A stretch of 64,000 bases of DNA from Halobacillus litoralis (GTDB lineage: Bacteria; Bacillota; Bacilli; Bacillales; Halobacillaceae). The stretch lies in NCBI RefSeq assembly GCF_020524085.2, contig NZ_CP129016.1, forward strand, positions 1,234,001-1,298,000, in the 5' to 3' direction. The first letter of the stretch is position 1. Each line of letters begins with the position of its first letter. Positions 6,998-50,160 of this stretch are shown here, piece after piece. Under the pieces are notes generated by a model. It saw only the letters and a program-made list of their open reading frames with translations. It searched no databases and was not told the DNA's origin. The position numbers were made by a program, and so were the translations under genes.

Positions 6998-7112
6998 CTC
7001 CCCTTATCTTTCAGATCATGTGATCTGTAGGATGTAGCACCTTTTCAAGGTAATACCTTGAAGGTTGCCGGGCGTCGTAGGGCCTAGTCCCTCTGCCGCT
7101 CTCGATAAGAGT
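6998..7112 (-). ncRNA. SAM-I (S-box) riboswitch
   Basis: On the minus strand the leader reads CTCTTATCGAGAG, then GGCAGAGGGACTAGGCCC, then CGACGCCCGGCAACC, then a hairpin, then GGTGCTACATCC and a closing GATAAG that pairs with CTTATC at the 5' end. These are the conserved S-box blocks in order, with the four-way junction and kink-turn. When SAM binds, the downstream terminator at 6951-6987 should form and block metY-metX. Confidence 0.95.
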
Positions 7113-15105: not shown

Positions 15106-15158
15106 GCGAAAGGTCATCCGTTTTGAGGATGACCTTTCGCGCCAAAGGAGCCAGTAAA
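15106..15158 (+). repeat. Hairpin followed by one 21-bp unit (single-copy relative of the array at 37295)
   Basis: A 14-bp perfect stem GCGAAAGGTCATCC / GGATGACCTTTCGC with a seven-base loop (15106-15140) runs straight into CGCGCCAAAGGAGCC and GTAAA (unit 15138-15158). The array at 37329 has the same arrangement with an equivalent stem ending GGATGCCCGTTCGCGC, a seven-base loop and the unit CGCGCCAAACGAGGCC. There is no T run after the stem, so it is not a standard terminator. Confidence 0.7.
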
Positions 15159-22911: not shown

Positions 22912-22958
22912 AACGTATGATCCAAAAAGAGAATATTTATAAGACGTTAATAAGATTT

Positions 22959-23084
22959 ATCAGTGGGTTTTAAGCATATATCGGTGGGTGGCTGGTACTT
23001 ATCAGTGACTTCCGGCCTTTTATCGGTGCCTTTCACACATTTATCAGTGACTTCAATGATTTAACCAGTATCAGCAACCAGTCC
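22959..23084 (+). repeat. Imperfect tandem repeat with an exact 21-bp period (five to six units)
   Basis: ATCAGTG or ATCGGTG starts at 22959, 22980, 23001, 23022 and 23043, exactly 21 bp apart, and the A and G forms alternate. A weak sixth unit (ACCAGT) starts at 23064. The conserved heptamer is followed by a variable CTT/GTT-type stretch. It lies between the EIIA terminator and the remnant repeat before sacA. Purpose unknown; the spacing puts every heptamer on one face of the helix. Confidence 0.8.
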
Positions 23085-37290: not shown

Positions 37291-37294
37291 TATT

Positions 37295-37333
37295 GCGCGA
37301 ACGGGCATCCATTTATAGGATGCCCGTTCGCGC
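37295..37333 (+). repeat. 16-bp-stem hairpin at the head of the 21-bp array
   Basis: GCGCGAACGGGCATCC (37295-37310), seven-base loop, GGATGCCCGTTCGCGC (37318-37333). The last bases of the right arm are the first bases of array unit 1. No T run follows. The equivalent structure at 15106 has a 14-bp stem and a seven-base loop. Confidence 0.85.
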
Positions 37334-37616
37334 CAAACGAGGCCTGAATCGCGCCAAACGAGGCCTGAATCGCGCCAAACGAGGCCTGAATCGCGCCAAA
37401 CGAGGCCTGAATCGCGCCAAACGAGGCCTGAATCGCGCCAAACGAGGCCTGAATCGCGCCAAACGAGGCCTGAATCGCGCCAAACGAGGCCTGAATCGCG
37501 CCAAACGAGGCCTGAATCGCGCCAAACGAGGCCTGAATCGCGCCAAACGAGGCCTGAATCGCGCCAAACGAGGCCTGAATCGCGCCAAACGAGGCCTGAA
37601 TCGCGCCAAACGAGAG
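37329..37616 (+). repeat. Perfect 21-bp tandem array, 13 full units plus a partial 14th
   Basis: Each unit begins CGCGCCAAACGAGGCC and ends TGAAT; 13 units from 37329 to 37601 look identical, and a partial unit changes to GAGAGCC at 37611. Because 21 is a multiple of three, long open frames appear on both strands (about 100-130 codons of a seven-residue repeat), but none has a ribosome site or a natural composition, so I do not call a gene. There are no spacers, so it is not CRISPR. It sits in the 37246-37693 gap between the AGCS terminator and yfmR. Confidence 0.95.
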
Positions 37617-37693
37617 CCGAGACGCTACATCGCTCTACACCTTCTCAGATGTGATATGATGGACAGAGATATTCAGTAAAAGGAATGAGCGGA

Positions 37694-49810: not shown

Positions 49811-49826
49811 GACCTCTCCCTTCGCA

Positions 49827-49872
49827 CCGGACCAGGTCATCCCCCAAACGGATGACCTGGTCCGGTTTTTTT
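49827..49872 (+). terminator. Terminator after the oxidoreductase gene
   Basis: Sixteen-bp perfect stem CCGGACCAGGTCATCC / GGATGACCTGGTCCGG, seven-base loop, run of seven T. Confidence 0.95.
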
Positions 49873-49907: not shown

Positions 49908-50160
49908 GGCAGATTCAGTTTGGAGACTCTTGTTGAGTGGATGGGGGCTGCAGGGAATAGCTCGCTTTCCGCGGGGCCCCACACGAAGTGGGGTCGTTCG
50001 ATGTTGGCACAGGACGTGCCGAACTTAATCGAACTTCCTCTATTCTTTTGAGCCTCCTCGGACTGCGTCCTGTGGGGTCTCACCAAGCACTTTTTTCCCG
50101 CAGGAGTCTCGCCATTCCCCTCCGCCCCTTTACCATATAATATTCTCCAAACCACTTCTG
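49908..50160 (+). repeat. Dispersed A-module repeat carrying an insertion (locus 4)
   Basis: Left part (TTCAGTTTGGAGACTCTTG, GCTCGCTTTCCGCGG) and right part (GAGCCTCCTCGGACTGCGTC, GCAGGAGTCTCGCCATTCC) match the A copy at 26988. Between them, about 49977-50052, is foreign sequence: a CCCCAC / GTGGGG hairpin, then GTTCGAT ... ATCGAAC enclosing GGCAC-AGGAC-GTGCC. Confidence 0.87.

Follow-up and report, generated by a model that had tools for sequence, protein, structure and literature searches.

Between an amino-acid symporter gene (sodium:alanine symporter family) and an ABC-F ATPase gene that we take to be yfmR, the DNA analyzed here (a stretch of 64,000 nucleotides, referred to as the window) contains a tandem array whose 5′ end is capped by a REP-type hairpin. 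The hairpin (37295 to 37333, plus strand) has a 16-bp stem formed by GCGCGAACGGGCATCC and GGATGCCCGTTCGCGC around the 7-nt loop ATTTATA. Folded as single-stranded DNA, positions 37293 to 37334 reached −23.5 kcal/mol (z = −9.1), a value equaled by none of 200 shuffled sequences; six array units alone folded no better than shuffles (z = +0.4). The array consists of 13 identical 21-bp units, CGCGCCAAACGAGGCCTGAAT, on the same strand (37329 to 37601), and the first 5 bases of unit 1 are the last 5 of the hairpin. This arrangement had been described in a first-pass annotation and is confirmed here: TRF found a single array (37328 to 37614, period 21, 13.7 copies, 100% matches), an exact recount gave 13 perfect units (starts at 37329, 37350, and so on to 37581), and the right arm of the hairpin runs into them through the 5-base overlap. 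What had been called a partial 14th unit is of full length (37602 to 37622, plus strand), with the same 13-base head and a diverged linker, and differs at 5 of 21 positions. An open reading frame of RAKRGLN repeats runs through the array; it is a by-product, because the unit is stop-free. A role of the unit as a protein repeat was ruled out, since the frame is broken where arrays mix 20 and 21 bp.

Arrays at the yfmR place have 14, 7, 6, 4, 2, and 1 units in six species. The linkers are species specific and, within each species, uniform except in the last unit, as expected from the recent local expansion that the first-pass annotation had proposed. The array is real: separate assemblies of other species carry arrays of other units at the same place, so an assembly artifact is unlikely. 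The element is preceded by the symporter gene's own terminator-like hairpin. On its other side, TATGAT at 37655 to 37660 (plus strand), outside the repeat, is probably the −10 box of yfmR, as read from the sequence. Elsewhere, the window holds two short imperfect repeats of 21-bp period and unrelated sequence (22951 to 23054) and a SAM riboswitch on the minus strand (7001 to 7111).

The repeat family and its two head classes

The array at yfmR is a single representative of an interspersed tandem-repeat family that is specific to a clade within one genus. Its exact 14-base head, with up to 1 mismatch allowed, is restricted in its own genome to the yfmR place, and looser searches of that genome recovered the same kind of head in arrays at other loci. 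The first-pass annotation had made its reading depend on the unit recurring elsewhere, and the head class does recur, both at these other loci and in relatives. Class-A units are 21 bp long and consist of the head CGCGCCAAA(G/C) and a free linker. Class-B units are 20 bp long with the head CGCGCGCAAG, and some arrays are of mixed lengths. The annotation also called the units exact multiples of two helical turns, a description weakened by sister arrays, whose units are 20 bp long or a mixture of 20 and 21 bp.

At least one tandem pair of heads was found in 10 of 22 genus genomes, including G014, G015, and G017 (2, 1, and 8 hits), which lie outside the locus set; at least 15 related genomes of the genus are without the heads. 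Locus counts are lower bounds from G009 on, and those for G000, G012, and G020 are complete for the pattern used. Class-A heads, at up to 3 mismatches, were absent from all 22 other genomes of the family, and in an order-wide sample 5 of 397 genomes matched: four belong to this genus, and the fifth has a single pair. Fifteen sequences were used to build a covariance model of the hairpin and head, which was run under stricter filters. Hits scoring at least 39 bits came from 7 of the 44 family genomes, each a member of this genus; at an E value of 0.01 the model matched 29 of 44, mostly through the apical hairpin alone. The exact 19-mer gave 4 single matches across genome contigs, in other genera, which we read as chance. 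A phage origin was considered and rejected: two scans of viral collections returned 14 single-pair matches for class A, one per contig and with no array, and no hits for class B.

When sorted by flanking sequence, the 73 element loci fetched from seven genomes represent 21 groups of places. In 18 of these, one or more species have an array; the other 3 have only a hairpin. Most arrays have no hairpin. The first-pass annotation had overlooked such hairpin-less sister arrays, as well as the REP-type character of the hairpin and the leading-strand orientation. The family adjoins many unrelated genes, and one group merges two paralogous gene places, bearing class-A and class-B arrays. A sister element lies within the window (15106 to 15150, plus strand, 76 bits): it has the hairpin GCGAAAGGTCATCC..GGATGACCTTTCGC, then one class-A head, and no array. 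Its orthologues are arrays in G001, G004, and G009 and a single head in G020. Several draft contigs break within arrays (the ends of G001:C26 and C41 and of G004:C5, C6, C12, C13, C26, and C27); true copy numbers at those ends therefore exceed those seen. In L178 (G001:C23:63479-63865), two unit types alternate to give a 42-bp higher-order repeat.

Heads vary less than linkers. Among 29 class-A arrays, the mean difference per position was 0.130 in the head (positions 1 to 10) versus 0.403 in the linker (positions 11 to 21), and 0.061 versus 0.271 when internal units only were compared (16 arrays), a contrast that is inflated because the loci were found by exact heads. These means were taken within arrays with at least 2 distinct units (L181, L190, and L195 included), the units having been extended by whole-unit similarity. 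Distal units lose the head. When 1.08 Mb of sequence was oriented in the leading sense, the exact class-A head CGCGCCAAAG occurred five times in that sense, always in elements, and never in the lagging sense; one-mismatch heads outside elements had no strand bias (9 and 11).

The two classes are unevenly distributed between species. With one search pattern, G020 had 10 class-A and 0 class-B loci and G012 had 1 and 7 (Fisher p = 0.00025), and G012 carries single or decayed class-A heads at places that are arrayed in other species. Class A is the expanded class in G000 as well. The place shared by L112, L124, and L131 is occupied by class A in three species and, in G012 (L199), by class B; L173 (class A) is orthologous to L198 (class B). 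Such switching, though few events underlie it, suggests a trans-acting factor that chooses which head expands.

Orientation relative to replication

In the genome that carries the window, dnaA lies on the minus strand of C1 (901604 to 902926). Across 20 sampled stretches, GC skew changes sign twice, becoming positive near 0.9 Mb and negative again between 2.815 and 3.0 Mb. With the origin and terminus placed from dnaA and skew, the yfmR array reads in the leading-strand sense, and all 9 head-bearing elements of the genome are codirectional with the fork: the minus strand carries those at 234610, 398938, 442603, and 684570, and the plus strand those at 918609, 1249102, 1271329, 1338201, and 2659845. 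A tenth head, of class B and found by chance near 2412456, also has the leading sense. Weak headless hits of the covariance model in this genome (218649, 1413401, and 1308492, for example) are directionless symmetric hairpins and were left out of the count.

The same held in relatives. Beside elements of five relatives, GC skew on the element strand was positive in 40 of 40 stretches of 6 to 20 kb. Local skew was positive at 70 of 73 loci and slightly negative (−0.002 to −0.015) at L170, L176, and L194, for which the ori/ter position or an 18-kb stretch is consistent with the leading sense. The three G003 loci, G004:C27, and G012:C22 were without a large skew stretch, and G012:C22 was placed by means of its dnaA. 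The test spans 19 of the 21 groups, giving a p value of about 4 × 10⁻⁶ if orientation were random and 0.004 under a gene-like leading-strand bias, taken as 75%. The tested elements are thus locked to the leading-strand sense, and arrays without a hairpin are locked too. Transcription does not explain this lock, because one group (L182, L202) opposes both of its neighboring genes and two (L170/L176 and L173/L198) sit between divergent genes, although the gene calls beside elements are rough, including small frames by the 234708 group.

Capping hairpins, array uniformity, and RAYT-associated palindromes

Hairpins of this kind occur in 9 of the 21 groups, six of which have arrays in some species. 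The one at yfmR is common to six species, and its stem changes are mostly paired: G001 has a paired A-T to G-C exchange, and G009 has lost one base on each side of the stem. In G012, a broken left arm accompanies a single unit (n = 1). Pairing holds in 95.4% of cells of the hairpin alignment. Changes on both sides affect 8 cells versus 2.5 in shuffles (0 of 500 reach 8); pairs with changes on both sides number 3, a figure matched by 55 of 500 shuffles. Between species, hairpin identity is 0.97 to 0.98 versus 0.65 to 0.82 in the flanks at three places and 0.89 and 0.93 versus 0.51 to 0.82 at two more; at yfmR it is scarcely above the flanks (0.91 versus 0.89).

Arrays headed by a hairpin are more uniform than those without one, and they diverge on one side. 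Among arrays of at least 5 units, the commonest unit made up a median fraction of 0.86 of hairpin-headed arrays (n = 15) versus 0.28 of hairpin-less arrays (n = 20; Mann-Whitney p of about 10⁻⁵, which is optimistic because orthologues are not independent). The more divergent end was the far one in 11 hairpin-headed arrays and the near one in none, with 4 ties; the corresponding numbers for hairpin-less arrays were 13, 6, and 1. Two class-B arrays, L197 and L200, have no detected hairpin and yet are as uniform as hairpin-headed arrays (11 of 13 units). The comparison dropped L130 (register lost) and L183 (one unit) and omits arrays at contig ends or with Ns (L070, L074, L113, L134, L135, L182, and L187) as well as L202.

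RAYT-type genes (PF01797) are present in 17 of 22 genus genomes; the copy in the window's own genome scored 53 bits against the NCBIfam model REP_Tyr_transpos, under its cut-off of 80. Hairpins with the apical sequence GGTCAYCC numbered 13 in 1.08 Mb, whereas permuted octamers, a slightly less degenerate control pattern, averaged 0.035 (maximum, 2). By this count they form a short, dispersed, many-copy palindrome of the REP kind, and two of the 13 are array-type hairpins. Hairpins with the apical core also lie near 9 of 10 RAYT loci examined. At L281 (G010) and L288 (G016), near-identical long hairpins with apical AGGTCATCC..GGATGACCT flank the RAYT gene on both sides, and at L287 (G003) such a hairpin is found on one side only; these three loci have a REPtron-like arrangement. 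A GGTCACCC variant occurs within the stretch at six of the ten loci. No such hairpin stands beside the RAYT gene of the window's own genome (L280), and neither head nor array was found at any of the ten loci.

An apical stem is common to the array hairpins and the RAYT-side palindromes. The GT[AG]G motif is absent 5′ of the foot of the array hairpins, which reads AAGCG, TTGCGCG, and similar. Sharing the core but set on a different foot that lacks GT[AG]G, the array hairpins appear to be members or offshoots of the palindromes found in the genus, and RAYT proteins may have mobilized them. Two further observations concern these features. In three genomes, a RAYT gene lies about 3 kb from one class-A array group (L183, L194, L201), with gene and array at G001:C40:112769/115845, G009:C11:625303/628671, and G012:C18:490806/493859. 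In the window, a hairpin at 49826 to 49866 has an apical GGTCATCC..GGATGACC core and no head or array, and it lies about 110 bp from an Rfam match to the Bacillaceae-1 RNA (49978 to 50044).

Origin of the arrays and relation to known repeats

The family most resembles the STAR elements of staphylococci, which are likewise intergenic interspersed tandem repeats with a conserved motif and a locus-specific spacer. According to the portion of the STAR report consulted, a short GC-rich motif is repeated in tandem, in variable number and at intergenic sites, with spacers alike within a locus and different between loci, and both their origin and their mode of spread are described as unknown (PMC3532100). 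The STAR motif is given there as 14 bp, T(G/A/T)TGTTG(G/T)GGCCC(C/A), with spacers of 40 bp or more; in the searched text the word "orientation" does not occur and no hairpin head was found (PMC3532100). The heads described here, CGCGCCAAA(G/C) or CGCGCGCAAG, are unlike that motif. The family is also tied to REP palindromes. In the sections of two papers that were covered, REPs are short dispersed palindromes, mostly downstream of genes and beside a Y1 (HUH) transposase gene, and the RAYT (TnpA_REP) family acts on single strands, of which the lagging-strand template is one source (PMC6006769, PMC3733652). Unlike REPs, the array hairpins are without the GT[AG]G foot, and the tandem 20- to 21-bp units are not palindromic.

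Other repeats share some of these features. As far as the consulted excerpts go, Borg repeats are perfect, fast-evolving, and tandem and have a replichore-linked bias in composition, which makes them similar to the arrays here; they belong to archaeal extrachromosomal elements, are often in reading frames, and have no common head reported (PMC9879509). Betaproteobacterial BREs and the GGGAATC repeats of Xanthomonas are, like this family, intergenic, interspersed, and tandem, with variable or multiple copies. Unlike this family, which is aligned with replication, BREs are described in the part consulted as not co-oriented with the fork (PMC3110155), and the GGGAATC repeats as preferring neither the leading nor the lagging strand (PMC4692102). 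The arrays do not have the setting of iterons, as no initiator gene adjoins (the neighbors are the symporter and ABC-F genes, and dnaA is about 0.37 Mb away). Compared with CRISPR arrays, whose repeats alternate with unique spacers of regular length and are accompanied by cas genes, the units here are contiguous and their linkers are repeated within the array. Among the open-access texts covered, in part, by our search, none described this repeat or a replication-locked tandem family, and Borg repeats came nearest.

The reading that we favor, to which we give an even chance, is that these are STAR-like, REP-related interspersed repeats that grow by slippage: lagging-strand synthesis would halt at the hairpin foot, slip back, and so add units. 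The array strand would serve as template for the lagging strand, the hairpin lying on the 5′ side of the units. Okazaki synthesis would copy the far (3′) units first and reach the hairpin foot last, where it would stall; the nascent 3′ end could then slip back a unit or more, using the head to pair in register, and recopy what it had passed. Fresh identical units would thus arise beside the hairpin, and divergence would accumulate in the older ones at the far end. Single-strand transposition of the HUH, RAYT type on the lagging-strand template may have dispersed the hairpins and possibly imposed the strand lock as well, and a cellular function would not be needed. Slippage fits the uniformity on the hairpin side, the divergence at the far end, and the greater uniformity of hairpin-capped arrays. 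It leaves the strand lock of hairpin-less arrays unexplained; for these, a lost hairpin, strand-biased insertion, or a function is needed. Also against the mechanism are the uniform hairpin-less arrays L197 and L200, the missing GT[AG]G foot, the RAYT gene without a hairpin in the window's own genome, and the yfmR hairpin that is conserved about as well as its flanks. The low variability of heads relative to linkers fits a binding site also.

Ranked below slippage, and in our judgment doubtful, is a polar array of protein-binding sites, in which a protein would read the head every two helical turns and the direction would serve a fork-linked process such as chromosome organization, translocase orientation, or fork pausing. 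The difference between heads and linkers (in whole arrays and in internal units), the complete strand lock, and the two head classes, each expanded in different species, favor such a protein, but the first of these is inflated by the finding of loci through exact heads, distal units lose the head, and the spacing is 20 or 21 bp, mixed in some arrays. KOPS- or Chi-like motifs are scattered singly over the chromosome. The exact head, by comparison, is found in 1.08 Mb in elements only, and at least 15 related genomes of the genus do without heads. Slightly less probable still is a version in which trans-acting, head-specific fork machinery builds and maintains arrays in the leading sense only, with specificities A and B live or dead according to species; the arrays would then serve as polar landmarks or mark the activity of a replication-coupled amplifier, and would not be passive products of slippage.

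We think it improbable that the element acts as RNA, with the hairpin and purine-rich units transcribed at gene 3′ ends and serving in stability, termination, or the sequestering of a small RNA or protein. In 17 of 21 groups (on rough gene calls), the element shares its strand with the gene 5′ of it, many arrays begin 11 to 60 bases past the stop codon of that gene, and hairpin conservation exceeds that of the flanks at 5 of 6 places. However, replication sense is kept in the group that opposes both neighbors and in the two between divergent genes, the symporter gene already has a terminator-like hairpin upstream of the element, and the arrays themselves are unstructured. A known RNA family was also sought, and Rfam at the gathering threshold gave no match at the array. 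Very improbable is a variable-number switch just upstream of the promoter that tunes yfmR expression, as the first-pass annotation had envisaged. The array does end about 30 bp ahead of the −10-like box and its unit number varies from 14 to 1 across the six species, but the same element stands beside many unrelated genes, and the GATATGAT/AATATGAT/GATATCAT box upstream of yfmR is found in 21 of 22 genus genomes (G021 differs) and hairpin plus head in only 6: the remaining 16 are without hairpin or head at this place, and the box is retained in all but one.

With slippage as the favored reading, the hairpin-capped arrays offer a natural system for studying repeat growth, new copies being apparently added beside the hairpin. 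The family makes single-strand transposition testable as a source of dispersed repeats. Its strand lock, together with the natural contrasts that it provides (presence or absence of the hairpin, head A or B, and six close species), likewise makes it possible to test directly whether repeats grow at a hairpin in the template of the lagging strand.
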